This document shows positions 36,826 through 64,000 of a stretch of 64,000 nt of DNA, piece after piece. The DNA is from Maridesulfovibrio sp. (GTDB lineage: Bacteria > Desulfobacterota > Desulfovibrionia > Desulfovibrionales > Desulfovibrionaceae). The position numbers were made by a program, and so were the translations under genes. The notes below the pieces were generated by a model. It worked only from the letters and a program-made list of their open reading frames with translations. It was not told where the DNA came from and searched no databases. Position 1 is the first letter of the stretch; the number at the start of each line of letters is the position of its first letter. Where the stretch lies: the NCBI RefSeq assembly GCF_963677005.1, contig NZ_OY781616.1:1839501-1903500 (forward strand), read 5' to 3'.

Positions 36826-37461
36826 TTACTCTTCAACCAAAGTAGACGTAAGTTTGTTTGAACTGGGAGCTAAGCTCTCTTCTCGGATAATACCCAACCC
36901 AGAAGCCACCACGTATAATTTCTCAATGTGCATCCCTGCAAGATCAAGTGAATACTTAACGTGTACAAGTTTGCGTAACTTACCCAGAACTACTCTTTCC
37001 TCTTCTTTAACAATCACATAGTCAGCTTTCACCTTCCCGGTCGAAGACCAGATAAGCTGGCTCCATTCTCTATTATTTAAGTCAAGAATAATATTTTCAT
37101 TCTTTTTGCCCTTGTTGAAAATTAATTTTCCATCTTCAGCTGTGAGGTAGTAACGATACATTGTTTCTTCCGGAAGATCATCCGCATAGCGAACTCCTTC
37201 AGGAAGCTTAGTTTTTAGTCTCTCGCCCGGTGAAACTTTTCTTACTTTAGGTAACTTCGTCCATTCTTCAATAACATAGCTTCCATCATCATTCACCGTA
37301 GTGCATATTACCCTTTTGGTGATCCCAAAATCACTTAATTTTAATTTTATGCTTTCTCCTGGCTGTGGCCCTAAAAACTGAGACACATCAGAAGAAGCCC
37401 AAACAGTTTGGGAAACTAAAACCAAAACAACCAATACGGCATTAATTATTACTGAGTACAA
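36826..37461 (-). CDS. Exported protein overlapping the Rhs gene; putative immunity/partner
   Basis: About 211 residues if started at the TTG at 37461 (AGGAAAG upstream); in-frame ATGs at 37506 and 37512 are alternatives. It begins with a hydrophobic export signal (SVIINAVLVVLVLVSQTVWA, cleavage after VWA). The mature part (about 190 residues) is predicted beta-rich: ESIKLKLSDFGITKRVICTT, MYRYYLTAEDGKLIFNKGK, GKLRKLVHVKYSLDLAG, IEKLYVVASGLGIIREESL. I do not recognise a family. It overlaps the Rhs 3' end by 20 bp or more, the usual place for an immunity gene. An exported immunity protein would imply a toxin acting in the periplasm or envelope (inference). Confidence 0.65.
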   Translation of the reverse strand: MYSVIINAVLVVLVLVSQTVWASSDVSQFLGPQPGESIKLKLSDFGITKRVICTTVNDDGSYVIEEWTKLPKVRKVSPGERLKTKLPEGVRYADDLPEETMYRYYLTAEDGKLIFNKGKKNENIILDLNNREWSQLIWSSTGKVKADYVIVKEEERVVLGKLRKLVHVKYSLDLAGMHIEKLYVVASGLGIIREESLAPSSNKLTSTLVEE

Positions 37462-39397
37462 CGGTCTTTCCTGTCCCCGGATGATAGGTAAATACAAAAT
37501 CTCCATGTTCAATATTTCTACCTTGGCAAATCACTGTGACATCTGTCTCAACGACATCGGTCTCATCGACTTGCCGGGTTTCAGTTTTATTTAACAATTC
37601 TGTCTTTGAGTCCTCACATTCCCTGACCCTTCTTTTGGTCCTTTGTTCCTCTGCCGTATAATATTTTCGCCAATATGCAGAACCCCCAGACCCTACAATG
37701 AAAGCACGGATATATTCATAATAAATATCAGTTTCTCTCACTTTTTCCCATTTTGTGACTTCCTCCCAGACAACGCACTCAATTAGTCGACATCGACAAT
37801 TCGGATGCGGCCTTTTCACCGCAGGGGTATCGAAGTATTCACCATCCAATTTTTTGCATTCAGCACATGCCCCATCACTCGCTTGCCACCGATAGAAAAT
37901 CCCTAAAACAGTTCGCTCAGGAGGAAAATCGATAGGCCCAACTCCACCGGTCATCAACCCATCAGGATCATTAAAATTAATCGGATCATCCAAGCAATAC
38001 CCATAAACATCCACATCACCGCCACCATATCCAAGCGGATCTTGGGCTGTAAAACGCCCAATCTCGGAATCATACTCGCGGAAACCGAAATGAACCAACC
38101 CGGTATCTTTATCAGTAAGCCCGGATGCAAAGCCAAGCGGCAGATAAAACTGCTCATTTGTATCCACCAACACATTTCCAAACGAATCGTATATAATTCG
38201 CTTTATCTCATTTCCCTGATCATCAGCAACCATAAAAACCGATCCGACCTGATCAACTGCCAGATAGAACGTCTTACCCTCGGATGTCATGATAATCTGG
38301 TCAGACTCTTCATCGTGGGTAAAAGTTATTTTATTCTTACCCGTTCCGTCAGCGATTGCTTCAATAGTCTTGAAATCTTTCCACTTATATTTTTCGACAA
38401 TCTCACCGTTAATTTTCTTAGCAATGCGCACACCACGTTTATCGAAAACGTATTTAATAATTCGACCATCAGGCAGAACAACCTTACAGAGCTGACCATT
38501 GGACAGGTATTCGTATTGAGTAACCCTATTTTTGACTTTCTTCTCAGACAGGCTTCCATAAGCATTGTATGTGTATGTGGTATCACCAGCCTGTAGAAGA
38601 CGAAGCTTATCATCATACTCGTAGTGCCTACGCCCAGAATGCAATGTTTCAGAAACTAACCGCTCGCCCTGCGCTCCGTACTGGTACTGCTCAACAAGAC
38701 GATCTCCCTCCCAAACCTTATTCAGTCTCCCGCCTGCATCATATCCATATTGGAGATGAAGATCATTCGGATCAAACGCGAGCAACCTCTCAAATATGCG
38801 CCACTTTTCATCACGTGCAGCAGCCAGAATGGAGAAGGGCTTATCAGCTCCGGGGACAGTAAAAGCGATGGTACGAACCTTTTCATCAGGATCAATTTCA
38901 ATACCATCCTTGGCTAGTTCGTCCTGAATACTTTCTCCGGTTCCAGCTTGTACATATGGATGAAGCGGATGTTGAGAATGCTGATGATTAACACTTGCTG
39001 TGGCTGCACTAAATTCTGCTACAGCTTTCCTTCCGTAGTCCGTTTCAGCCAGTCCGCGAACAACGGGCAGGTTTGGATTCTGTTCCATAAACTGAGCATG
39101 GACCATTCGCTTCAGTTTGGCGAAAATAGCTTTGGATTGCTCCTGCTCGTATAACTTCTGATCCCATCTACGTTTGGTCTCCGGCTTCATCATAGATGAA
39201 TAAAGTTTGTCTCCCATTGAAAATTCTGAAAAATCAACTCTCGGCTCTTTCAGTTCCTCACCTGTTCTGCGGTCAACTATCTTCCAAAGATTTTCGATCT
39301 GCATTTCCGCTGGTTCGGTTTCACCGTACAGCACCAGACCAGTTGTCAATTCACTGCGGGGTCTAAGCTCCATCCGGTAATTAGTGAAAGATTTCAT
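37442..39397 (-). CDS. Compact Rhs/YD-repeat protein with variable C-terminal (putative toxin) domain
   Basis: 651 residues; ATG at 39397 with GGAGG 6-7 nt upstream. Residues 1-200 are not Rhs-like. About 210-480 carry YD repeats (YGYDAGGRLNKVWEGDRLVE, YEYDDKLRLLQAGDTTYTYN, YEYLSNGQLCKVVLPDGRII) and the Rhs core end: IIYDSFGNVLVDTNEQFYLP, YDSEIGRFTAQDPLGYGGGD, then DPINFNDPDGL near 481. The next 170 residues are unrelated to Rhs and form the C-terminal tip. They start with a zinc-ligand-like motif ACAECKKLDGEYF...RPHPNCRC, as in phage Mu gpF-type minor head proteins, then a charged region with no recognised toxin fold. Far smaller than classic Rhs (about 1400). It lies between tRNA-Val and its partial duplicate. 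Confidence 0.85.
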   Translation of the reverse strand: MKSFTNYRMELRPRSELTTGLVLYGETEPAEMQIENLWKIVDRRTGEELKEPRVDFSEFSMGDKLYSSMMKPETKRRWDQKLYEQEQSKAIFAKLKRMVHAQFMEQNPNLPVVRGLAETDYGRKAVAEFSAATASVNHQHSQHPLHPYVQAGTGESIQDELAKDGIEIDPDEKVRTIAFTVPGADKPFSILAAARDEKWRIFERLLAFDPNDLHLQYGYDAGGRLNKVWEGDRLVEQYQYGAQGERLVSETLHSGRRHYEYDDKLRLLQAGDTTYTYNAYGSLSEKKVKNRVTQYEYLSNGQLCKVVLPDGRIIKYVFDKRGVRIAKKINGEIVEKYKWKDFKTIEAIADGTGKNKITFTHDEESDQIIMTSEGKTFYLAVDQVGSVFMVADDQGNEIKRIIYDSFGNVLVDTNEQFYLPLGFASGLTDKDTGLVHFGFREYDSEIGRFTAQDPLGYGGGDVDVYGYCLDDPINFNDPDGLMTGGVGPIDFPPERTVLGIFYRWQASDGACAECKKLDGEYFDTPAVKRPHPNCRCRLIECVVWEEVTKWEKVRETDIYYEYIRAFIVGSGGSAYWRKYYTAEEQRTKRRVRECEDSKTELLNKTETRQVDETDVVETDVTVICQGRNIEHGDFVFTYHPGTGKTVVLSNN

Positions 39398-39841: not shown

Positions 39842-40603
39842 ACTGTTGCCGATTCCTCAGGAAACAGTGTACAGGAAGTCCTATATGATTCTTTCGGAGT
39901 TATGATACAAAACAGCCATCCCGAACTAGTGCTCCCGCTCGGCTTTGCCGGGGGACTATGTGATTCCGATACCGGGCTGATCCATTTCGGCTACCGAGAA
40001 TACGATCCGACCATTGGTAGATTCATTTCTCCTGATCCTTTGGGGTATGCTGGCGGTGATGTGGATCTTTATGGTTACTGCGGAGATGACCCGGTTAACT
40101 TTATCGACCGTATGGGTCTGAGTGACACCAGTGAGGCGCAGGAGGAAGACGAGGGCGAAGGAACTGAGCCTGAAAAGGAAGACGAAAATTTCTTTTGGAC
40201 GGTAACTCCCAAAGAGAATGCCTGCGAAAAATGTCAGGCACTCAAAGGAAAAACCTTTAAGAAAGAACCTGAAAGACCGCACCCCAACTGTAAGTGCGAA
40301 ATCAAGAGACATTTCAAGGGCATCACTATTATGGGTAAACTTGATGGTCAAGGCAGCAGCGAAAGTCATAAATTCGGTGCCGGGCAGAAAATCGTTGTTG
40401 AAGTGAGGAATCTCGGCCCCTTTTTTGCCGGGGCAAGAATTCAGGTTGACGGCGATGTGGAGGAAAATACTGGACATATGGCTCCGGGCCAGTCCAAGTC
40501 TTTTGATTTTACGAAATTCGGCGAGATACCGGTGCCATGGGAAGTGGCGATCACCTGCGATGGAGCCGACAATTCCAGTATTCTTTATTTCATAAGGGGT
40601 TAA
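39842..40603 (+). pseudogene. Headless Rhs fragment: core end plus toxin-like tip
   Basis: The frame joins the Rhs core at TVADSSGNSVQEVLYDSFGV, equivalent to about residue 400 of the Rhs at 37442, and runs to a TAA. Core end: YREYDPTIGRFISPDPLGYA, DDPVNFIDRMGL. The tip (about 155 residues) is an acidic linker, then ACEKCQALKGKTF...RPHPNCKC, the same Cys/His motif as the first Rhs tip, then a different domain ending WEVAITCDGADNSS. The 5' part is missing and no good start exists (ATG at 39902 is the first). It is the kind of orphan Rhs tip that is silent until recombined behind a full Rhs gene (known for rhs loci; inference here). Confidence 0.8.
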
Positions 40604-49782: not shown

Positions 49783-51573
49783 TTATCTTTTAAATATGTG
49801 GCGCAGGCGAAAGCCCAACGGGGCCAGCAGAAGCAGCAACCATTCAACACTGAAGGTTGCCTGCGGATTCAGCGTGCAGCCTGTGGAGGAAGCGGAACCG
49901 GAACTTGTGCTGGTTCCAACAGCCACCGGGTCAGATATTTCACCGAGATCGCGGTCTTCGTCAAAGCTGCCGTTATCCTTGATTACAAAATAGATGAAAT
50001 ACTCAGTACCCAGTGTGGTGTCGTCCGTTTGAGCCAGATGGTTGCCATCTGCGTCTGTCACCCACCAGTAGCCATCGATATTGTATTCCGGTCCGGTCAG
50101 GGCGTAATTACTATATTCCTTGGATGTCCCGTTGGTGTTGTAGAATTTCATCAGGGTCAGGTCGGAGACCTTGCCGGTCGGGATGGTAGCGGAACTGATC
50201 CTGAAAGTAGCGCAGCCGCCATTTATATCAATGGTGGCGTTGAAGGAATCAACATTACTTTTGGGTGTAAATCCGCCGGAATTGTATTTTGAAGTAAGTT
50301 CGGTGCCGTCCATTTCTTTGGCAACGCTTTCGGAAATACTGACACTTACCCCGTCCGCCTGGGTTTCACTTGGAAAGACGCTGCCGGACTCACTGGCTCC
50401 GGTATTCTGGTTGTCTTTTTGGGACCTGGGCCATTCAGTATTCGCAAGACCACCGGAATCCCCTTCTGATGCGCGCAAATATTGAGCATCGAACCCCGGA
50501 TTCAAGATATAATAAATTGTTCCATCATTACCTATGGCCGGGGATACGCTGGTTGTTGTTCTTGAAGTATCCGCACTCCATTTCAGCGACCCATCAGCCT
50601 TTATAGCGTATAATTTAGAATTAAGTGTATGAATATAGATGGTTCCATCGCTGGCAATGGCCGGTGAGCCTACATAACCTTCTGTGGTATATTTCCATCT
50701 TTCACTGCCGTCAGCATTCAAAGCATATAAATAACCGTCCTGATCGTCATCTGCCGCGCCTGCTGTTCCGAAATAAATAACGCCCCCACTGCCTATAGCC
50801 GGCGAAGAGGAAATTCCGGTATCTGTTTTAAATTTCCATTTCAGTGTTCCGTCAGGCCTGACTGCATACAGATTCTGGTCAGCTCCATCCGAGCCGAAGT
50901 AGATGACACCATTGCTGCCGATGGCAGGAGGAAAATATACGGATCCACTTGCCTCATATGTCCATTTAAGTGTGCCGTCGGGTTGGATTGCATATAAATT
51001 ATCGTCGCTTGCTTCTACATAAACAGTCCCGTCCGGCCCTATCACCGGAGCAGAGTTGAACCTTTTGCCTGAGTCATATATCCATTTTTCGGAACCATCA
51101 GAGTTTACGGCATACAGTTTACCATCGTTTGTTGCTACATATATGGTCCCGTCGTTTCCTATGGCCGGAGAATAGCCGATTGAACTGCCTGCTTGGTATT
51201 TCCATTTTTCGCTGCCGTCTGAATTTAAAGCGTACAATATCTGGTCAGATGCTCCGACATAAATAGTTCCGTCACTACCGATTGTCGGTGGGGAATAGAT
51301 TTCGCCCGTAGTTTGATACTTCCATTTCTCCGTTTTATCAGTTTTGAGAGCGTATAAGACCCCATCTGAGCCACCCACATAAAGAATTCCATCACTGCCG
51401 ATTGCAGGGGGATATGCCTTTCCCGTCTCTGGTGCAAAATTCCATATTAAACTTCCCGGTGTTGCCATACAGGGGGAAGCAAATACTATTAGAATGGATA
51501 GAACTGCAATTAAGCTTACTGCCGTCAGTGTAAGGGAGTGGCGAGAGTTTCCGGTGGAGTCTGAGATGTTCAT
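49783..51573 (-). CDS. Surface/periplasmic PQQ-type beta-propeller protein with C-terminal sorting-like tail
   Basis: 596 residues from ATG at 51573 (GAGG upstream); an ATG 20 codons earlier is possible. Export signal LTAVSLIAVLSILIVFASPC. Eight or more PQQ-like blades, each about 40 residues, with the repeat SPAIGxDGTIYVGxxDxxLYALNxDGSEKWKY. Then a linker, a Ca-type beta domain (about 405-560, choice-of-anchor-U-like) and a tail GCTLNPQATFSVEWLLLLLA then PLGFRLRHIFKR. That tail is a Cys-led hydrophobic and basic segment like CTERM sorting signals. No metal or quinone residues identified. Probably displayed on the cell envelope. The dispersed repeat copy 2 lies upstream. Confidence 0.8.
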   Translation of the reverse strand: MNISDSTGNSRHSLTLTAVSLIAVLSILIVFASPCMATPGSLIWNFAPETGKAYPPAIGSDGILYVGGSDGVLYALKTDKTEKWKYQTTGEIYSPPTIGSDGTIYVGASDQILYALNSDGSEKWKYQAGSSIGYSPAIGNDGTIYVATNDGKLYAVNSDGSEKWIYDSGKRFNSAPVIGPDGTVYVEASDDNLYAIQPDGTLKWTYEASGSVYFPPAIGSNGVIYFGSDGADQNLYAVRPDGTLKWKFKTDTGISSSPAIGSGGVIYFGTAGAADDDQDGYLYALNADGSERWKYTTEGYVGSPAIASDGTIYIHTLNSKLYAIKADGSLKWSADTSRTTTSVSPAIGNDGTIYYILNPGFDAQYLRASEGDSGGLANTEWPRSQKDNQNTGASESGSVFPSETQADGVSVSISESVAKEMDGTELTSKYNSGGFTPKSNVDSFNATIDINGGCATFRISSATIPTGKVSDLTLMKFYNTNGTSKEYSNYALTGPEYNIDGYWWVTDADGNHLAQTDDTTLGTEYFIYFVIKDNGSFDEDRDLGEISDPVAVGTSTSSGSASSTGCTLNPQATFSVEWLLLLLAPLGFRLRHIFKR

Positions 51574-51730
51574 GTTCTGCCTCTGCAAAGTTTTTGGACT
51601 TAATGCCCGGTCGGGAATTAATTTTTCCTCCATAACAACTCTGCAAAAGTGTGTATGTCCGTCAAAACACGTACAAATAAACTTGAGACTGCCCCCTTAC
51701 ACTTTGAGACAATTCTGCCTTCTCTATATC

Positions 51731-55667: not shown

Positions 55668-56272
55668 CTAGACTTCAGACGTATAAGGCGGAGCAGGATT
55701 GTACTGGAGAATTTTCTGAATCTGACGGGAATGGTCAGGCGTGTGAATCTGCCCTATCAGCCACAAGGTCATGTCGATACCGGCAGAAACCCCTGCGGAA
55801 GTAACGATTTTTCCATCCCGGACGTAGCGCATATCCAACAGCTCCGTAATGTCTGGATCGTTTTTAAGAAAATCAGCAAGCATCCAATGCGTGGTAGCCT
55901 TTCGCCCTTTGAGCAGACCGGCCTTCTGCAGGATTAAAGCCCCGGTGCAGACTGAAGTCATGTATTCAACTTTATCATACTGCTCCCGTACCCACTCAAC
56001 CGTATTGCTGTCTTTGATTGCATATTCATAAACATTGCCGGTTCCGGGCAAAACCAGAACGTCCAGATCCGGCGCACTTTCAAAACTGTACTGGGGGGTT
56101 ACCTTCAGCCCTCCGCTTCCGGTGATAGGATCTGTCGTCTTTCCAATGGTCACAACACTGCAGGACTCAGGAGAGATGATATGTGACGCCGTAAAAACTT
56201 CCATTGGGCCCACAAAATCAAGTTCCGCGACCTGCTCATAAATGAATATTCCGCATGTTACTTTTTTTTCAT
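55668..56272 (-). CDS. DJ-1/PfpI family protein, start separated from frame by an A8 tract
   Basis: About 201 residues if the frames are joined. DJ-1/PfpI fold: VTCGIFIYEQVAELDFVGPM, LDVLVLPGTGNVYEYA, YMTSVCTGALILQKAGLLKG (nucleophile Cys in VCTGAL), KATTHWMLADFL, VRDGKIVTSAGVSAGIDMTL; closest in look to isonitrile-hydratase/InhA-type proteins. The expected start is ATG at 56272 after a perfect AAGGAG. However, ATG is followed by eight A then GTA ACA, so the ATG is out of frame: one more A is needed to read MKKKVTCG. Either a sequence error, a slippage-controlled start, or a recent frameshift. The rest of the frame is intact. Confidence 0.75.
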
Positions 56273-56683
56273 TGTTTTCTCCTTTGCAGATAAGGGATTG
56301 CCGTTTTAGTTGCTCTGTTGCCCTGCAACGGGAATCCATACCGGTAGTACAGAAATTCCAAATATGAAGGGTCACAGGAGCAGCAACACCATTTGTCCTC
56401 AGTGCTTTTCTTCCGCTTTCAGCCAAACAGTGCTCTTTCCGTTTCATCTTTCCCGATAAAATCCGGGGTGAGCCAAAGCAGGCATTCCTGAAGACATGAA
56501 CATCTAATTTCTTGAGTACAATGTAGGGAGGACACCCTTTGGCAGCAATGACAAAAAACAAGCGATTTATGCCAAGCGATAATTGAGGGAGTAAATCTTT
56601 GAAGTTGAAACAACTGCCCGGTGCTAAAAATTGCCATAGAGGCAGGATGCTCTGCTAATTTCCTAATTGCAGCAGGCCACACG
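56273..56683. other. Upstream region of the DJ-1 gene
   Basis: 411 bp with no convincing gene, though the DJ-1 frame stays open back to 56561. Contains the 37-bp shared element at 56539-56575. Confidence 0.4.
56539..56575. promoter_or_regulatory. Shared 37-bp element TTGGC-N27-GCCAA, copy 2
   Basis: Upstream of the DJ-1/PfpI gene: TTGGC at 56539, GCCAA ending at 56575. Same length and many inner bases as the copy at 55543-55579, but 267 bp from the gene start rather than 26. Confidence 0.55.
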
Positions 56684-56709
56684 AAAAGCCGACCCCTTGC
56701 GAGATCGGC
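56684..56709 (-). terminator. Weak intrinsic terminator after the kinase gene
   Basis: GCCGATC / GGTCGGC hairpin on the minus strand (plus-strand arms 56688-56694 and 56703-56709) with four T, 39 nt after the kinase stop. It would end the peptide-cluster operon. Confidence 0.55.
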
Positions 56710-56747
56710 CATTACTTTTTTATGAAATTTAAAATGCAGTGTATTAA

Positions 56748-58835
56748 TTACCGCTGGTTGGGCTTGTTTTGATCGGTAAGAATCTCATTGCGCATATAAA
56801 TCAGTAAACGAGCATTCAATTCACTCCAACCCAGAGATTCTGCAGTTTCCCAAATGGCTGTAAGTTGGTTCTGGTGCAGACTTGCCTGTTCATCAACAGC
56901 ATCCGCAAGAACTGATTCAACAACCGGAACAAGTGCTTCAACGCTTTGCCGCACAGCACCGGCCAGATGCAGCACCTGCGTCCGGCATTCTTCATCATCC
57001 AGATGAGTGGCAAAAAGAAACAAACGGGCAAGCTGTTTCAGCTTGGCAGTAAAAGCAGAGAGCTTGGCATCCGGGGCGGAGACCTCCCCAAGGAGCTCAG
57101 CAGCATAAATTTCAACAAGTCCTTCCGCCGCAGCGATAAAATCGATAACGATTTCCCGCCCCATGCTCAGCTGATAACCGCACGCACCGTCAGCGTCCAA
57201 AGTCCGTTCAGCCACAACAATCAACTCATCAATCTGGCACATGAAATTAGCCACATCAAAACGGGACATCATATCGCCACCATGCGTAAACTCACGAATG
57301 GCGGCAGCAACCCGCTTTAAAACCTGCCCGGAAAACATCTGGACCTGATTTGAAATCTGCCGCACTTCCATTTCTCCGCCGAGCTCCTCGACTCCCCATT
57401 GAAGTATATCCAAGCGCATGAAGTCAGCGGCGATACGCGTGATTTCCAAATGGTCCGGAGAAAAAAGATATGTGTTGATATGTCCGGCATACATCATACA
57501 TGCGCCGAGCAACTCCGCCCGAACAACACGGGCCAGTGCTTCTCCAACTCCCGGTCTGCCGAGATCTTCCAACGTCTTTGACAGTGCGGTAAAAATGTCA
57601 ATGCACCCCATCCAGTCTGAGCGATCATTAAGGCACAGCGATTTTCCGGGCAAGGGAGCCCCTTCCAGAATCAACTCCTTGACCCGAGGAAGCACGCAGT
57701 CTCCGAAAACGGAACAGTCCCGCTCAAGGACAGCGGATAATCTGGGATCGGCCGGAGGCATGCTTCCCCCGGACGCAGCGAGAACGGTATTGACGTAGTC
57801 GTCCGCAAGTTTTCTGCACTCACTCACAAGACAATCGGAAAATTCTTTATCCAGACCTTTCTGCAACAGTTCCTTCATTCGTGTTCCCAAGTCCGAAAGA
57901 GCTTCCGGGGCCGGCATGGAGGCAAGCATTGTCCCGTCATCCAGCACGGTCGCATCCATATCCACAAAAACAGTTACATCGTTCAGGTCTTCTTCCCGTG
58001 CACAGGCAAAGGCATCCGCAAGGGCATCGGAGAACTCCTTTGCACTCAGGAAACGCCCGTCCCGTTCCTTGGCCATGGACCGGGCAATGATAGAATCAAA
58101 AGCACGGGATACACGGATATTGACGGAAGACGGCGCGGCCGGGACCGTACTCAAGACCTGCTGCATGATCTGAGTCAGAGAACCCTGAAACGGCTTTTTT
58201 CCCGTAAGCAACTGATAAAGGACTACTCCGGCGGAATAGATGTCGGTCCTGCGGTCCACACATTCACCGATAACCTGCTCCGGGGACATGTAGGACGGAG
58301 TGCCGAGCATGGCTCCGGCCTGCGTCATTTCCGAGGATTCCACACGTGCAATACCGAAATCCATGACTTTTACATTACCGGAGTCCACCAGCAGAATATT
58401 TGATGGTTTGATATCCCTGTGGATAATTCCCTTTTCATGGGAATAGGAGAGGGCTGCCAGGACCTTGGAGAACAGAATTTCAATCCGGTCAAGATCCATG
58501 GGTTTTCCCGAATCGAGTGCCTCCTTGAGTTCCCGGCCCAGAACCAGCTCCATGGCCATGAAAACATCAACTCCGTCCTGACCGGAATCCAGAACATGAA
58601 TTATATTCTCGTGTCTGAGGCTTTTGGAGATGGCTGCTTCATGCAGAAAACGCTCAAGCACACGGTCCCTCTCTCCGGAGGCCAAAAGATCAGGGCGAAG
58701 CGTTTTGACGGCGACCTCCATACCAGATGAAGGGGCAAACCCTTTGTAAACCACGCCCATAGCACCTCTGCCGAGGATCGGACCCAACCGATAGCCTCCA
58801 AGCGATCTCCCCTCATTAGGGCAGGAATTATCCAT
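56748..58835 (-). CDS. Hanks-type Ser/Thr protein kinase with long C-terminal region
   Basis: About 695 residues; ATG at 58835 has AAAGG 9 nt upstream (an ATG 3 codons earlier is too close to the RBS). Kinase domain about 12-275, all key residues present: ILGRGAMGVVYKGF (P-loop), VAVKTL (Lys), GIIHRDIKPSNILLVD (HRD), VKVMDFGIARVES (DFG), GTPSYMSPEQVIG, DRRTDIYSAGVVLYQLLTGK. The remaining 420 residues are helical, with no membrane segment and no PASTA or other known sensor; they may bind a partner. Cytoplasmic. 155 bp after the PP2C gene, so it is the last gene of the unit peptides - ATP-grasp - phosphatase - kinase. Confidence 0.93.
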   Translation of the reverse strand: MDNSCPNEGRSLGGYRLGPILGRGAMGVVYKGFAPSSGMEVAVKTLRPDLLASGERDRVLERFLHEAAISKSLRHENIIHVLDSGQDGVDVFMAMELVLGRELKEALDSGKPMDLDRIEILFSKVLAALSYSHEKGIIHRDIKPSNILLVDSGNVKVMDFGIARVESSEMTQAGAMLGTPSYMSPEQVIGECVDRRTDIYSAGVVLYQLLTGKKPFQGSLTQIMQQVLSTVPAAPSSVNIRVSRAFDSIIARSMAKERDGRFLSAKEFSDALADAFACAREEDLNDVTVFVDMDATVLDDGTMLASMPAPEALSDLGTRMKELLQKGLDKEFSDCLVSECRKLADDYVNTVLAASGGSMPPADPRLSAVLERDCSVFGDCVLPRVKELILEGAPLPGKSLCLNDRSDWMGCIDIFTALSKTLEDLGRPGVGEALARVVRAELLGACMMYAGHINTYLFSPDHLEITRIAADFMRLDILQWGVEELGGEMEVRQISNQVQMFSGQVLKRVAAAIREFTHGGDMMSRFDVANFMCQIDELIVVAERTLDADGACGYQLSMGREIVIDFIAAAEGLVEIYAAELLGEVSAPDAKLSAFTAKLKQLARLFLFATHLDDEECRTQVLHLAGAVRQSVEALVPVVESVLADAVDEQASLHQNQLTAIWETAESLGWSELNARLLIYMRNEILTDQNKPNQR

Positions 58836-58989
58836 CAAACGCATCCTTTTATAGCCCGTATTCCTACCGAACCCTCAAGGTTGCCGGCAGACCGAAAACG
58901 GGGAAAGAAGCTGAATTGCTGCACCGTAATTCGTATAAAACGGCAGGCAACTTGCGGCAGTATATTTTCTTAAATGAAAAAGTAACTCA

Positions 58990-59763
58990 TCAGAGACTAG
59001 CCGCGATGACGATTCCGATATTATCCCGACCTCCGCCTCGCTTGGCAAGTTCAACAAGAGCGTCGGCAGCTTCCGGCAGGCTTTCCCGCCGTACGTTTCT
59101 TATGACCCCTTCAATCTCTTCGTCAGAAACCATACCGGTCAGGCCGTCAGAACATGCCAGCCACACATCTCCGGGCAGCACGGCCTGAATGCTTATTTCC
59201 GGGTTGACGGAAGGATTGGGGCCCACGGCCCGAAGTATGTAATTCTTGAACGGAGCCTTTCCATGACCGCCTTCGCGTTTCCACTCCTCGAACACGGAAT
59301 GGTCACGGGTAAGACGCACCAGACACCCTCCGCGATACCTGTAAACCCGGCTGTCACCTACATGAAAAACAACCGATCGTGAGTGGTCATCAAACATCTT
59401 GAATCCGGCAAGAGTTGCTCCCATGCCCCGTCCTCGTGACATTCCCCTGGCTTTGTTCAAGGTAAAAATTTCAGCGTTGGCGCATTCCACCGCCCTGCGA
59501 ACCGCCTCGACCATCGGTTCCGGAGTTTCACAGAGGGTCGCGTCATCATCAGCCAGTTCGGCAACGGGGTTCTCCTCCGACTCCATAACATCGGCCAGTT
59601 CTCTTTCCAGAACCTTAAGGCAAAGGGAACTGGCCACGTCACCCATGCCGTGTCCGCCCATACCGTCAGCCACGGCAAAAAGCCCTGCTGCTTCATCCAC
59701 AATCACGGCATCTTCATTGTGGTCACGCATAATGCCTTTATCAGCAACGCAATACGCGTGCAT
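58990..59763 (-). CDS. PP2C-type Ser/Thr protein phosphatase
   Basis: About 257 residues. Metal-dependent phosphatase with intact motifs: VADKGIMRDHNEDAVI, LFAVADGMGGHGMGDVASSL, FHVGDSRVYRYRGG, VWLACSDGLTGMVSDEEIE, GGGRDNIGIVI. The start lies inside the 3' end of the ATP-grasp gene (overlap about 23 nt). GGAGG there is 8 nt before the ATG at 59763; the ATG at 59766 and a GTG at 59772 are alternatives. Expected to counter the neighbouring Ser/Thr kinase. Confidence 0.93.
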   Translation of the reverse strand: MHAYCVADKGIMRDHNEDAVIVDEAAGLFAVADGMGGHGMGDVASSLCLKVLERELADVMESEENPVAELADDDATLCETPEPMVEAVRRAVECANAEIFTLNKARGMSRGRGMGATLAGFKMFDDHSRSVVFHVGDSRVYRYRGGCLVRLTRDHSVFEEWKREGGHGKAPFKNYILRAVGPNPSVNPEISIQAVLPGDVWLACSDGLTGMVSDEEIEGVIRNVRRESLPEAADALVELAKRGGGRDNIGIVIAASL

Positions 59764-60748
59764 CATGCACACCTCCAGCTTTAACCAGGGCTGAGGCTTC
59801 CTCTACGCTTCCGGTCCGGGCATACCCGACCAGATAGCGGGCCAATTGACGGAAAACCAACGCCCTGTTTTCCTTACCGATCCACATTACATAAGGACCG
59901 GGATTGCAATCCAAGTAGACATAGCGGCCGTCAGCGGACGCCATCACGTCCCAGGCCGCGTAATGGAGCCCCAGAAAACGGGTCGCTTGAACTATGCGTT
60001 CCTTTTCTTCCGGCGGCATTATGAAACGTTCAAATCCTTTGGTAGAGGTCCGGCTGTCAACATCCGGGGCTATTATTTCAAGGGCCAGCACCATGGAGTC
60101 TCCGACCACATGCACCCGCAAGGTCTTCCCGCGCACATATTCCTGAAAAAGCACAGGACAAAGGGGCAGATCCGAAGACTCCCTGATATCATCCGGCAAT
60201 ACGGCACGGGTGGACCCCACGCCGATGGAAGGTTTGCACACGGCCTCTCCGACCAGCGAGATGAATCGTGCTGCCTCGTCCGGACTGTTGGTCATGATAC
60301 TGCGGGGAGCGTCGAAGCCGTTCTCGCGGAGTTTGGAACAGAGTTGAGCCTTGGTGTCGTGATCCACATAAGCGCCGAAAGGGGAATTCACCACGAGCCC
60401 TCCTCGTCTGGCAAACTCTTCGAAAAAACCGAAAGCAGCTCCCTGAAAAAACTGTTCCCGCATGAAAGATGTACGAAACTCTTCATACTGGACAGCATTG
60501 GTAACCGGCGGCATGGAAAAAGAAGTGTTTTGGGAAATGCAACGAATATGCAGGGCCTTTATTTCGGAAAAATCGACCCCGCCCCAGGACATGCGAGAAG
60601 ACGAGAGTGAGACCTCTTCTCCGTTTTCCCCTCCCAGACCGGAGCGGCACACAACGGGATCAGCACCCTCTTCACGAACAAAACGACTTATTTCATCTAC
60701 CTGACGGCAATGCTTTCCTGAAAAAAGGGCGACTTTCGGCTGCATCAT
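59741..60748 (-). CDS. RimK-like ATP-grasp ligase, putative peptide-modifying enzyme
   Basis: 335 residues; ATG-ATG start at 60748/60745 after GCAGGT. N-terminal part (about 1-125) is unlike any family I know. Then an ATP-grasp domain: KLRENGFDAPRSIMTN, GEAVCKPSIGVGSTRAVLPD (ATP-binding Lys and Gly-rich loop), VLFQEYVRGKTLRVHVVGDS, then DVMASADGRYVYLDCNPGPY (Mg-binding Asp/Asn pair). This type ligates a carboxylate to an amine or hydroxyl with ATP. Next to the three small peptides, it probably forms side-chain ester or amide links in them (graspetide type), but a free small-molecule ligase role cannot be excluded. Confidence 0.85.
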   Translation of the reverse strand: MMQPKVALFSGKHCRQVDEISRFVREEGADPVVCRSGLGGENGEEVSLSSSRMSWGGVDFSEIKALHIRCISQNTSFSMPPVTNAVQYEEFRTSFMREQFFQGAAFGFFEEFARRGGLVVNSPFGAYVDHDTKAQLCSKLRENGFDAPRSIMTNSPDEAARFISLVGEAVCKPSIGVGSTRAVLPDDIRESSDLPLCPVLFQEYVRGKTLRVHVVGDSMVLALEIIAPDVDSRTSTKGFERFIMPPEEKERIVQATRFLGLHYAAWDVMASADGRYVYLDCNPGPYVMWIGKENRALVFRQLARYLVGYARTGSVEEASALVKAGGVHDARVLRC

Positions 60749-60769
60749 ACCTGCTTGGCTTTGAGCAAT

Positions 60770-60868
60770 TCATCCCCGTAGAAAAACGAGCAGCCCGTTC
60801 ACATTAAAAAGGCTGCCGACATCTCCAAGAAATGTAATAAACGCCGTAGCCACCCCGCACTTACCCAT
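60770..60868 (-). other. 32-residue small ORF overlapping the precursor/ATP-grasp hairpin
   Basis: ATG at 60868, 2 nt after the stop of the first peptide gene, reading 32 hydrophobic residues (ending NGLLVFLRG) to a TGA at 60770. It has no ribosome-binding site and overlaps the hairpin at 60782-60816. Probably not a gene; given for completeness. Confidence 0.2.
60782..60816 (-). terminator. Hairpin between peptide genes and ATP-grasp gene
   Basis: On the minus strand GCAGCC...GGCTGC (plus-strand arms 60790-60795 and 60811-60816) and then TCGTTTTT. A partial terminator here would let the peptides be made in excess over the modifying enzyme, a common arrangement in peptide clusters. Confidence 0.55.
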
Positions 60869-60870
60869 GA

Positions 60871-61098
60871 TCAGGAACTTATATTAATAGAACCGATATC
60901 CACATTGTCAGTTACATCGCCGCCTATACCAGACTGAGAACCGCTATCGGCCTGATCACCGGAGGTTCCCCATCCCTCGTTGGAATTATCGGCTTGCGAG
61001 CCCATATAGCTACCGATGCACTGCCCTTGCAGAATATCTCCACCGGACTTCGCCATCCCGCCCGCTGCAGCTGTTACATCATAATTGCTGTCACCCAT
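60871..61098 (-). CDS. Small Gly/Asp/Ser-rich peptide 1, putative RiPP precursor
   Basis: 75 residues; ATG at 61098, GGAGA 6-7 nt upstream. Starts MGDSNYDVTAAAGGMAKSGG, has DNSNEGWG near 37-44 and ends DNVDIGSINISS. No signal peptide or membrane segment; acidic, Gly-rich, no Lys except one. It carries a single Cys (QGQCIG), missing in the other two copies. The last 12 residues equal those of the other two peptides. Third in the array and nearest to the ATP-grasp gene. Could also be a kinase substrate or a structural peptide. Confidence 0.75.
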   Translation of the reverse strand: MGDSNYDVTAAAGGMAKSGGDILQGQCIGSYMGSQADNSNEGWGTSGDQADSGSQSGIGGDVTDNVDIGSINISS

Positions 61099-61124
61099 AA
61101 CGTTTCTCCATTGATTTGAACTTA

Positions 61125-61352
61125 TTAAGAACTGATGTTGATGGAACCGATGTCCACATTATCCGTTGCATCTCCGCCTGTTCCGGACTGGCTTCCACTG
61201 CTTGCCTGATCGCCATCGGCTCCCCATCCTTCATTCGAATTATCCGTCATGTCGCCCATGTAACCACCTACGCCCTGCAGTTGCACAACATCTCCACCGG
61301 ATTTTCCCATTACGCCGCCTAAACCAGTTCCATCATAAGTAGTATCACCCAT
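61125..61352 (-). CDS. Small Gly/Asp/Ser-rich peptide 2, putative RiPP precursor
   Basis: 75 residues; ATG at 61352, strong GGAGG 6 nt upstream (a longer frame upstream exists but starts inside peptide 3). Reads MGDTTYDGTGLGGVMGKSGG, then DMTDNSNEGWGADGDQ and TGGDATDNVDIGSINISS. Two Gly-Gly-Asp sites: KSGGD near 17-21 and TGGD at 58-61. A cut after the second would leave a 15-residue C-terminal piece with three Asp, one Thr and three Ser, all possible ring partners. Spacing to the next peptide gene is 26 nt. Confidence 0.78.
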   Translation of the reverse strand: MGDTTYDGTGLGGVMGKSGGDVVQLQGVGGYMGDMTDNSNEGWGADGDQASSGSQSGTGGDATDNVDIGSINISS

Positions 61353-61377
61353 AACATACCTCCATTGATTTATTTTT

Positions 61378-61617
61378 TTACGAACTGATGTTAATGGAAC
61401 CGATGTCCACATTATCAGTTGCATCTCCGCCTGTACCGGTCTGGTTTCCATGGCTTTTCTGATCGCCGTCGGCTCCCCATCCTTCATTCGAATTGTCAGT
61501 CATGTCGCCCATATAACTACCGACGCCCTGCATTTGCACAACATCTCCACCGGACTTCAATGACATCCCACCCGCAAATGTTTCTGAAAAATTATCTGCC
61601 ACAACAAAATCTCCCAT
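61378..61617 (-). CDS. Small Gly/Asp/Ser-rich peptide 3, putative RiPP precursor
   Basis: 79 residues; ATG at 61617 with no good Shine-Dalgarno (AAGGTG is about 18 nt away). First gene of the array. Four residues longer at the N-terminus than its paralogues (MGDFVVADNFSETFAGGMSL), then KSGGDVVQMQGVGSYMGDMT, DNSNEGWGADGDQ and GGDATDNVDIGSINISS. Shares the invariant C-terminal 12 residues. The upstream 286-bp divergent region must contain its promoter and that of the HlyD gene. Confidence 0.75.
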   Translation of the reverse strand: MGDFVVADNFSETFAGGMSLKSGGDVVQMQGVGSYMGDMTDNSNEGWGADGDQKSHGNQTGTGGDATDNVDIGSINISS

Positions 61618-61903
61618 TACAGCATTATAATTTTACACCTTATACACTACATCCTCGTAACACACTTAGTCACTTTATGTACAGACATTTTGTCTTTTGA
61701 AATAAAAGTTACCACAACAGAAAAACACACCGGAAAACAATATGTTAAAGAACAAAGTTCACCAACCGTAACAATGACAATATTTCTTAGGCTGTTCTGC
61801 GTTTTCAGCCCACTTTTTCTACCTATACATTGCCTATTTGATACGATTAATGTATTGATATAAAAAAATAATAAATCGTACCACGAACATCAGTCAGGAA
61901 ACC

Positions 61904-63283
61904 ATGCTCCCCATGGAAACCCAGAAAACAAAGCCAGCTCGTTCCCGCGGGCCCCAAACAGGAATCAGGCACCCCATTAAAGCGGCACGACTCCTGTACA
62001 CCGTTCCCGGTTTTGTCCTCCGCGGACCGATATACGCCATCAGCCTCATCATCATAGTTTCCATCGCCTATTCCTTCTGGGCAAAGAAGGACACTATCGT
62101 CACGGCCCCGCTTACTCTCGGCAAAAAAGTAACTATAATCGAAGCCATAACTGGAGGACAGGTCGCCCGTGTGGCAGTAAGTCCCAACTCGCACGTGAAC
62201 TTTAACGAAGTGCTGATCGAAGTTCAGGAAAAGACCCGCGCAATAATGAATACCGAAATGGAAACTTTCGAATCCCGTATAGCTGAAGCAGCAAGAGAGC
62301 GCGAAAGAGTTGCTGACGAATACGAATACAAACTGGCCCAGTTCAGACTTGAACTTACCGATGCCAGTCATGGGCGAAGCACTAAGGCAATTACTATTCA
62401 GGGCCGGATAGACCAGTTGAACGAACGTTTGCGGACTGCGCGCAAGGAACTGGATCTGCGCCAGAAAGAATTTACCACCGCCAGAAACAGGTGGGAACGC
62501 GCCAGAAAACGATATGAAGACCGCGACATCACCATAACCCAATACGAAGAGGCGGAGCAGACCAAGGACCGCAGGCAAAAGGCGGTATCCGATGCCCAGG
62601 GATCAGTTGCGCAGCTCGCTGTTTCGCTGCGCACCGCCAGGGTGGAACTGAAGACTCTCAACGATGCGCACAGTCTGGAAAAAATCAGGGAAAACATTCA
62701 GCAGCTGCAGGAACGGCAGGAACGTGAGCTAATACTTCTTGACGATTACATAGCCTCGCTCAAGCACAAGAAAAAAGCCAGCCAGCAACTGGTTGGGGGA
62801 GTGAGCTACGAAGACAACATTACCGTTTACAAAAGCATGGTCGACGGTCTGGTCACAGATGTAAATGTCAACAAGGGAGAAATAATTTCACCGGGGCAGC
62901 CGCTGATAACGCTGGTCAGGGACACCGCAGTTCTGGAAGGACACGCCATGGTCCAGAACAAGGATATCGGGGCCATCCGCATCGGACAAAAGGCCAAACT
63001 GAAGTTCTGGGCCTATCCGTTTCAGGAATACGGGATACTCGAAGGAGTTATCTATGAAATTGACAAACAACCCGACAAGACCGAAGGCGGGACCTCGACA
63101 TATGAAATACTTATCGCCCTGGACAGGGAGTGGGCACAGAAAGATGGCAGCAAAGTACGTCACCCTCTGGCAATCGGCCTGGAGGGAATTGCGGAAATCA
63201 AGACCGGTGAAAAACGCTGGATAGAAATCCTGTTCACTCCGCTTTCCAAATTTTTCACGAATGATGAGGACCAGGATGGCTGA
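61904..63283 (+). CDS. HlyD-type secretion adaptor for peptide/bacteriocin export
   Basis: 459 residues; ATG at 61904 with AGGAAA upstream (61913 also possible). One N-terminal membrane helix (about 45-62, ISLIIIVSIAYSFW) and a long periplasmic part: lipoyl half 1 (IEAITGGQVARVAVSPNSHV, NFNEVLIEVQEKT); a long coiled coil about 115-300 (QGRIDQLNERLRTARKELDL, YEEAEQTKDRRQKAVSDAQG); lipoyl half 2 (SMVDGLVTDVNVNKGEIISP); and a beta-barrel end (AHPLAIGLEGI-like, with GEKRWIEILFTPLSKFF). It resembles adaptors of ABC exporters for bacteriocins/NHLM peptides. Divergent from the three peptide genes; overlaps the next gene by 8 nt. Confidence 0.88.
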   Translation: MLPMETQKTKPARSRGPQTGIRHPIKAARLLYTVPGFVLRGPIYAISLIIIVSIAYSFWAKKDTIVTAPLTLGKKVTIIEAITGGQVARVAVSPNSHVNFNEVLIEVQEKTRAIMNTEMETFESRIAEAARERERVADEYEYKLAQFRLELTDASHGRSTKAITIQGRIDQLNERLRTARKELDLRQKEFTTARNRWERARKRYEDRDITITQYEEAEQTKDRRQKAVSDAQGSVAQLAVSLRTARVELKTLNDAHSLEKIRENIQQLQERQERELILLDDYIASLKHKKKASQQLVGGVSYEDNITVYKSMVDGLVTDVNVNKGEIISPGQPLITLVRDTAVLEGHAMVQNKDIGAIRIGQKAKLKFWAYPFQEYGILEGVIYEIDKQPDKTEGGTSTYEILIALDREWAQKDGSKVRHPLAIGLEGIAEIKTGEKRWIEILFTPLSKFFTNDEDQDG

Positions 63284-64000
63284 TAAACACGACGCTATAC
63301 GAGACATTCTGGAATCCCACGTAATGTTCGCGACCCTTTCCGCAAAGGACAAGGCGGAACTGGCCCGGATGTTCGTCTTAAAAGAATACATGCCCGGTGA
63401 ACGTCTGGTTAGGCAGAATGAGTACACGGCCGGCGTATTGCACATTTACTCCGGTCAGGTCCGGCTGAAGCAGACCGTTGAAGGCCGCCGCACGGCTCTC
63501 GGCGACTTCGGCCCCGGCTCCACCTTCGGCGAAACATGCCTGCTGCATGAAACAGTCTGGGAATATGAGCTTGTGGCCGGGCAGGATCAGGTCAAGGCTA
63601 TCGTGCTTCCTGCTGAATCTGCCAAAAAATTCGCCGCAGAGCACGCTGAGGCCGCCGCTCTGTTCAGAAAAAACATCGGCCAGATTGAACTGAGCCACCG
63701 TCTGAAGTCGCTGATAGGCTCCTCAACCTGTCCACCGGCCAGGTTCGCCCTGATACTGAACAATCTGGGGGTAAAAAAAATTCCCAAGGGTTCAGCCGTA
63801 TTTTCACAAAACGATAATGACCCACGCCTTTATTCCATCGAGCAGGGTACCGTAGACATAATCCGGCAGGAAGACGGCGAAGAAATTACTCTTGACCGCT
63901 GTGCCCGTTTCGAACTGCTGGGTGAAACTGCAGCGCTGAGTGAAGCCGGCAACAACGACTGCCATTTCTATACGGCAAGGGCGGTAACGGATGTAACCGT
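63276..64000 (+). CDS. Protein with two cyclic-nucleotide-binding-like domains, 5' part (window edge)
   Basis: ATG at 63276 inside the hlyD end; open to the window edge (241+ codons). Domain 1 about 10-125: FATLSAKDKAELARMFVLKE, GERLVRQNEYTAGVLHIYSG, FGPGSTFGETCLL. Domain 2 from about 155: IPKGSAVFSQNDNDPRLYSI, EQGTVDIIRQEDGEEITLDR, LLGETAALSEAG. Both have the cNMP fold pattern (FGE/LGE turn) but lack a clear phosphate-binding Arg, so they may not bind cAMP. Some peptide ABC exporters carry such N-terminal domains. The rest, possibly an ABC transporter/peptidase, lies outside. Confidence 0.8.
   Translation, partial: MADKHDAIRDILESHVMFATLSAKDKAELARMFVLKEYMPGERLVRQNEYTAGVLHIYSGQVRLKQTVEGRRTALGDFGPGSTFGETCLLHETVWEYELVAGQDQVKAIVLPAESAKKFAAEHAEAAALFRKNIGQIELSHRLKSLIGSSTCPPARFALILNNLGVKKIPKGSAVFSQNDNDPRLYSIEQGTVDIIRQEDGEEITLDRCARFELLGETAALSEAGNNDCHFYTARAVTDVT

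Follow-up and report, generated by a model that had tools for sequence, protein, structure and literature searches.

Three tandem small open reading frames, located on the minus strand of the window (the whole 64,000-nucleotide stretch of Maridesulfovibrio sp. DNA that was analysed), probably encode graspetide-type precursor peptides with predicted modification and a dedicated exporter. The precursors P1 (60871..61098, minus strand) and P2 (61125..61352, minus strand) are both 75 aa long, and their ATG codons are preceded by the Shine-Dalgarno sequences GGAG and GGAGG, respectively. The first-pass annotation had given lengths of 75, 75 and 79 residues; the first two stand, and the value of 79 for P3 (61378..61602, minus strand) is likely a start-site error. 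No Shine-Dalgarno sequence was found ahead of ATG 61617, from which 79 aa would be translated, whereas GGGAGA is present 7 nt ahead of GTG 61602, and a GTG start resulting in 74 aa is therefore the probable one. With this start, the number of residues ahead of the KSGGD sequence described below is 15 in P3 vs 16 in P1 and P2.

The same annotation had described a common C-terminus, a fixed middle motif, GG-D sites and a 15-residue remainder, and these features were confirmed. All three peptides end in DNVDIGSINISS and contain DNSNEGWG; in P1 and P2, GG-D is present at residues 19-21 and 59-61, with exactly 15 residues after the final GG-D. The constant C-terminal block, with coordinates obtained by codon count, corresponds to GGDVTDNVDIGSINISS in P1 (60874..60924, minus strand) and to GGDATDNVDIGSINISS in P2 (61128..61178, minus strand) and P3 (61381..61431, minus strand), and P1 deviates at the second residue of the final 15 (DVTDN vs DATDN). 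The DNSNEGWG block is located at 60967..60990 in P1, 61221-61244 in P2 and 61474-61497 in P3, and KSGGD, a further invariant block of the three peptides, at 61036..61050, 61290-61304 and 61543-61557, respectively (all on the minus strand). At the protein level, no copy besides these three was found in the complete genome, a single contig of 4.26 Mb. No RNA family was found in 56000-64000, and a promoter and terminator scan of 60700-62000 gave 1 and 0 sites, respectively, not above the values for shuffles.

Homologues of the precursors were identified in one genome of the same genus (G140) and in one of another genus (G656), the genome of the window being designated G000. A DNA pattern made of the IGSINISS codons followed by TRR (TAA, TAG, TGA or TGG) was present in 3 of 288 genomes of the family, with three matches in G000, four in G140 and two in G656; all nine end in a true stop, and the reversed control of this pattern gave no match among the genomes listed. 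The third copy of G656 ends in IGAINISS. When a relaxed motif was searched in 348 genomes of the order, 13 scattered matches in 12 genomes were obtained outside these three, against 7 for the reversed control. The precursor genes directly adjoin the gene for the ATP-grasp ligase GRASP1 in the three genomes (3, 3 and 4 copies), and the ten full precursors constitute the alignment used in this work. In addition, a decayed precursor fragment of 27 aa with the tail IGSINVSS was observed between intact copies in G140 (L013:7546-7629).

Conservation had been predicted to peak at the C-terminal 15 residues, and such a peak was found in the homologues of the two other genomes; conservation over the full length, the pattern that would have spoken against this prediction, was looked for in the homologues and was absent. 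Ten of the 17 columns of the tail show no variation among the ten peptides. For the six peptides of G000 and G656 (three each, last 59 residues), the final 15 columns include 12 invariant ones; when the invariant columns were shuffled 100,000 times, this number was reached in 908 cases. An acid (Asp/Glu) at position −15, Asp at −12, Ser at −2 and −1 and, within the K[SR]GGD block recovered in all ten precursors, the Lys and the Asp are fixed throughout and represent the invariant candidates for crosslinked residues; IG[SA]INISS is entirely fixed, with the unreactive Ile, Gly and Asn included. Strictly invariant acids thus precede strictly invariant Ser residues in the tail. Every precursor has 15 residues behind its last GG, which is AG in one case; K[SR]GG is followed by exactly 55 residues in all six precursors of G000 and G656 and by 68-71 in the four of G140. 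As for the middle motif, its expected conservation held in two of the three genomes, where it persists as DNS..GWG (6 of 10 precursors), but the motif was lost in G140, being not recognisable in its four precursors in the ten-precursor alignment.

Substitution rates for each block were determined in the ten homologues, with P3 counted from the ATG, with pairs that are not independent and with some dS values near saturation; they gave dN 0.12 and dS 1.52 for the tail (last 17 residues), dN 0.04 and dS 1.30 for the KSGGD block, dN 0.92 and dS 2.31 for the N-terminus, and dN 0.92 and 0.75 for the two linkers, while the DNS..GWG block of G000 and G656 showed dN 0.13 with saturated synonymous sites. 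For the paralogues P1-P3, the tail gave a pS of 0.53 and a pN of 0.02. Recent duplication or gene conversion was rejected as the origin of the identical tails, since their synonymous sites have diverged. A genome-wide general secretion tag was also rejected, since the exact IGSINISS-stop motif in G000 is restricted to the three precursors. Altogether, the conservation of the tail exceeds that due to chance or recent copying, and the rates indicate that purifying selection acts on the precursor protein.

GRASP1 (59741..60748, minus strand), encoded next to the precursors, is an ATP-grasp ligase similar to graspetide synthetases, with its active-site residues kept: K172, D267, D280 and N282 are present in the three orthologues. 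Comparison of a three-row GRASP1 profile with solved chains gave 113.8 bits for 7drm, 54 for 5ig9, 51 for 5ig8 and 41 for RimK types, 7drm outscoring the latter by 72 bits; with the single sequence, 7drm was also first at 95.5 bits, and the rest remained at or below 36. The PDB text on 7drm reads only 'ATP-grasp domain-containing protein'; we take 7drm-7drp to be PsnB, the plesiocin graspetide synthetase, and 5ig9 and 5ig8 to be microviridin ligases. Scores against the NCBIfam maturase models were 66 bits for SAV_5884, 52 for MvdD and 44 for MvdC, all far under the cut-offs. An AlphaFold2 model of GRASP1 from a two-row alignment showed a pLDDT of 34.6. On the basis of its best solved match, 7drm, GRASP1 is assigned to the ligases of the graspetide-synthetase kind.

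In the 348 genomes of the order (E 1e-10), GRASP1 matches were obtained in four, and those above 600 bits corresponded to the three motif-bearing genomes, of which G656 had first been found through the motif. The match in G656 runs beyond the stop of the gene, the ORF itself being intact. The fourth match, in G026, reached 44.7 bits at the start of a contig, and no other cluster gene was found within the 14 kb fetched around it. Further ATP-grasp matches in G026, G014, G045, G184, G227, G339 and G496 scored 27-45 bits; in the sequence retrieved around them, none of the other nine cluster proteins exceeded 45 bits, G014 and G496 being short contigs. Searches of phages and plasmids with GRASP1 resulted in partial matches only, with less than 31% identity (2 and 1 records, respectively), no relative was found in viral contigs, and a genome-contig scan, which finds close relatives only, gave one distant Nocardia match. 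Because GRASP1 orthologues were found only with and beside the precursors, and because GRASP1 is closest to a graspetide synthetase, the precursors are its likely substrates. Graspetide synthetases join Ser, Thr or Lys to Asp or Glu side chains, according to passages of PMC13097080.

The cluster encodes a second ATP-grasp protein, GRASP2, which also matched 7drm (43.5 bits). In the three genomes, GRASP2 contains Arg in place of the ATP-binding Lys and Asp in place of the metal-binding Asn, and D280 is kept; the D267 column contains no acid, with Gln in one alignment and Leu/Ala/Met in another. GRASP2 was found in 1 of 395 sampled genomes of the phylum, G140 and G656 not being among its matches there, and no match was observed in plasmids.

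The export genes are located on the other side of the precursors and comprise a HlyD-type periplasmic adaptor of type I secretion (61904..63283, plus strand) and the start of the exporter gene (63276..64000, plus strand), which continues as L004:4777-8109 and encodes a protein of 1110 aa with two cNMP-binding domains, a C39 peptidase and an ABC permease/ATPase. The C39 domain aligns to the solved C39 exporters 4ry2 and 6mpz, presumably PCAT1 and LahT. Its Cys, His and Asp residues are intact in G000 and G656, and the His is replaced by Gln (CAG) in G140. An insertion of ca. 42 residues between the C39 His and Asp was observed in the G000 exporter, and it is absent in both homologues. The ABC exporter, HlyD adaptor and TolC-type outer membrane genes are all present together, which suggests that a dedicated type I exporter serves the precursors. 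In section 7 of PMC8939145, C39-ABC exporters and HlyD are included among the commonest neighbours of graspetide ligases, and the pairing of ligase and exporter is therefore ordinary. The peptides are thus adjoined by a ligase that probably modifies them and by an exporter that includes a peptidase domain, in support of the first-pass interpretation.

With regard to processing after Gly-Gly, as suggested by the first-pass annotation, the data point in both directions: the C39 triad is present in two genomes, but the His is lost in G140, and hydrophobic residues at −4, −7 and −12 are missing. In LahT, the leader residues at these positions fit hydrophobic pockets, as described in passages of PMC6363468. 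In the precursors, residue −4 of the K[SR]GG site is Lys in all ten; at both GG sites, no more than one of −4, −7 and −12 is V, I, L, M, F, W or Y (Ala uncounted), and at the last GG/AG site strongly hydrophobic residues are missing from all three positions in nine of ten precursors. A cut after KSGG in G000 and G656 is possible but would be noncanonical, because −4 is Lys and the leader hydrophobics are missing, and a putative cut after the last GG has less support than one after KSGG. The GGD sequence is kept in G140 although the catalytic His of C39 is Gln.

In the window, the precursors are adjoined by GRASP1, a PP2C-type Ser/Thr phosphatase (58990..59766, minus strand; the ORF extends from GTG 59772, and ATG 59766 fits the G656 homologue) and a PknB-type Ser/Thr protein kinase (56748..58844, minus strand), with HlyD and then the exporter in divergent orientation. 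Beyond the window (L004) are the rest of the exporter, an FHA protein, three TolC-type proteins and GRASP2. The FHA protein contains a strongly hydrophobic segment (19-residue hydropathy of 2.2 to 2.8 in the three genomes) and gave 50 bits with the TagH model TIGR03354, for which the curated cut-off is 120. By tblastn, each of the ten cluster proteins was matched in the loci of G140 and G656, and the best match of every OMF protein was its own counterpart. The ten counterparts are present in G656 with the same arrangement as in G000. The layout of G140 differs: precursors and export genes are on one strand, PP2C is located after GRASP2, three other ORFs are present between GRASP1 and HlyD, and the kinase match, 36% identical, may not be an orthologue. 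The levels of identity to G656 are 72% for GRASP1, 72% for HlyD and 49% for FHA, and to G140 they are 48%, 50% and 29%, respectively. All ten proteins are nearer to their counterparts in G656 than to those in G140, although it is G140 that shares the genus of G000. The cluster has therefore probably crossed a genus boundary, likely through horizontal transfer. The kinase, PP2C and FHA families, present in all three loci, perhaps form a Thr-phosphorylation switch on export.

Several additional features were observed in and around these regions. The large cluster genes (56748-64000 and L004) have a G+C content of 0.51-0.55, vs 0.50 around them, in line with the likely horizontal transfer. Just past the cluster, G140 contains four tandem genes for peptides of 114-118 aa (L014:12014-13846) which, judged by eye, begin like signal peptides, are nearly identical in their middle part and have ends rich in Gly and Ser. 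Elsewhere in the window, two proteins that by eye are RHS/YD-repeat-like, one per strand (37442-39397 and 39902-40603), have similar Cys-containing C-terminal parts (CAECKKLDG and CEKCQALKG), and the product of 49783-51633 contains, also by eye, repeated DGTIYVG-like, propeller-like units and a C-terminus that is hydrophobic and basic and resembles a sorting tail.

Starting from the observed peptide family, its selection pattern, the co-occurrence of the gene set, the relationship of the ligase and the active-site residues of GRASP1, GRASP2 and C39, we infer a substrate relation, crosslinks, cleavage, secretion and a regulatory role that would combine as follows. GRASP1, perhaps in partnership with GRASP2 and its altered active site, would use ATP to activate Asp/Glu side chains and link these to Ser, Thr or Lys side chains in the precursor. 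The dedicated ABC exporter would recruit the peptides through its C39 domain, a probable cut after KSGG in G000 would release a 55-residue product, and this product would pass HlyD and then TolC-like channels, with export turned on and off by the kinase, phosphatase and FHA protein through Thr phosphorylation. The constant tail would be either the crosslinked part of the product or a tag read by GRASP1 and/or the exporter. Counting against the graspetide reading are the NCBIfam scores of GRASP1, all below cut-offs, and the features of G140, where the middle motif is missing, 68-71 residues follow KSGG and C39 has no His. The leader motif Phhx(1,2)h was found in none of the ten precursors (first 40 residues), nine of which are devoid of any Pro; this motif, reported for about half of graspetide precursors in section 5 of PMC8939145, is not strictly defining. 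The combination of kinase, FHA, C39-exporter and graspetide genes is undescribed in titles and abstracts among the matches listed, and supplements may list the family. FHA, TolC, phosphatase, Desulfo and Deltaproteobacteria are absent as words from the main text of PMC8939145, as are kinase, FHA, follower and Desulfo from that of PMC13097080, in section 7 of which phosphotransferase neighbours are noted for groups 29 and 37.

As for the role of the constant tail, its identification as the crosslinked core has close to an even chance, its identification as a recognition tag for GRASP1 and/or the exporter is a plausible reading with somewhat less than even chances, and a role other than core or tag seems quite unlikely. 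To our knowledge, hydroxyls precede acids in graspetide cores, the reverse of the order found in the tail, and the contiguous fixation of Ile, Gly and Asn is not expected for a core. The fixation of these unreactive residues in IG[SA]INISS is like that of recognition motifs, and it favours the tentative proposal, also at rather less than even chances, that the tail is a C-terminal 'follower' for GRASP1 and GRASP2, with the crosslinked core upstream, between KSGGD and the tail. Furthermore, the segment before KSGGD is unconstrained (dN 0.92), and an N-terminal leader is not visible, because of this lack of constraint and of the absence of Phhx(1,2)h in all ten precursors. Passages of PMC13003496 describe an engineered graspetide synthetase that takes a C-terminal leader at a two-fold lower rate, the synthetase ThfB being functional with an engineered C-terminal leader. 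On the contrary, the upstream region in G140 is Gly/Ala/Ser-rich, with few acids and no evident shared donor-acceptor spacing. In addition, a C-terminal leader is not known to us from any natural graspetide. A native 'follower' pathway including possible acid-to-later-hydroxyl links, a pseudo-ATP-grasp partner and phospho-Thr-gated type I export is, in its entirety, doubtful.

It is unlikely that the tail acts as a type I secretion signal bound by C39 and the exporter, with the ATP-grasp proteins acting elsewhere or on the C-terminal carboxylate, a reading that may hold alongside the 'follower' proposal. HlyD, ABC and TolC genes are indeed part of the cluster, and C-terminal signals are usual in HlyB-type export. 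The C39 domain of G140, without its His, also resembles a non-cleaving docking domain, a domain role described in passages of PMC6363468. However, the ligase gene adjoins the precursors in each of the three loci, no orthologue was found elsewhere, and a ligase so confined needs a substrate; moreover, the C39 residues are intact in two of the three exporters, and the exact motif in G000 is limited to the three precursors. An improbable alternative, less favoured still, considers the precursors as unmodified structural or adhesive surface peptides, with GRASP1 and GRASP2 making another product. The Gly/Ala/Ser-rich copies of G140 would be consistent with it, as would the three OMF and the kinase/FHA genes, which in our judgement are unusual for a small metabolite, but the three genomes with the motif are also those with GRASP1, and GRASP1 is nearest to a graspetide synthetase, an enzyme that acts on peptides encoded beside it, as the precursors are here. 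These readings overlap, and their probabilities do not sum to one. If the graspetide-type pathway proposed here is true, the family would depart from the usual layout of leader and then core, and a peptide-crosslinking pathway would be connected with type I export that is switched by a kinase, a phosphatase and an FHA protein. Because the tail is short and does not vary, a few peptides would be enough to tell core from tag directly.

Comparison with known systems shows partial likeness in each case. The plesiocin-type graspetides (7drm-7drp) provide the best solved match for the ligase, and precursor genes adjoin the ligase in both systems; unlike them, the precursors described here have no N-terminal leader motif and show another residue pattern. 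For its own part, the cluster described here includes an altered second ATP-grasp protein, a kinase, a phosphatase, an FHA protein and three OMF genes. The microviridin system (TIGR04184/TIGR04185, 5ig8/5ig9) also has two ATP-grasp proteins, and GRASP1 matches its models at 52 and 44 bits, but these scores are far under the cut-offs of 475 and 425 bits, no Phhx(1,2)h leader is present, and GRASP2 is altered. In partner-dependent graspetide pathways, as presented in passages of PMC13097080, a second protein beside the ligase may be needed, as could be the case here, although the published partner is PPIase-like, unlike the ATP-grasp paralogue GRASP2. With peptidase-containing exporters (4ry2, 6mpz), the system shares an ABC core and, in two of three clusters, the C39 Cys, His and Asp; it differs from them in the two cNMP-binding domains in front, in the His to Gln change of G140 and in substrates without hydrophobic residues at −4, −7 and −12. 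Finally, type VI secretion is controlled by Thr phosphorylation via a kinase, a PP2C phosphatase and an FHA protein. Genes of these three families are also present here, but they are linked to type I secretion, and the 50 bits of the FHA protein are below the TagH cut-off of 120.
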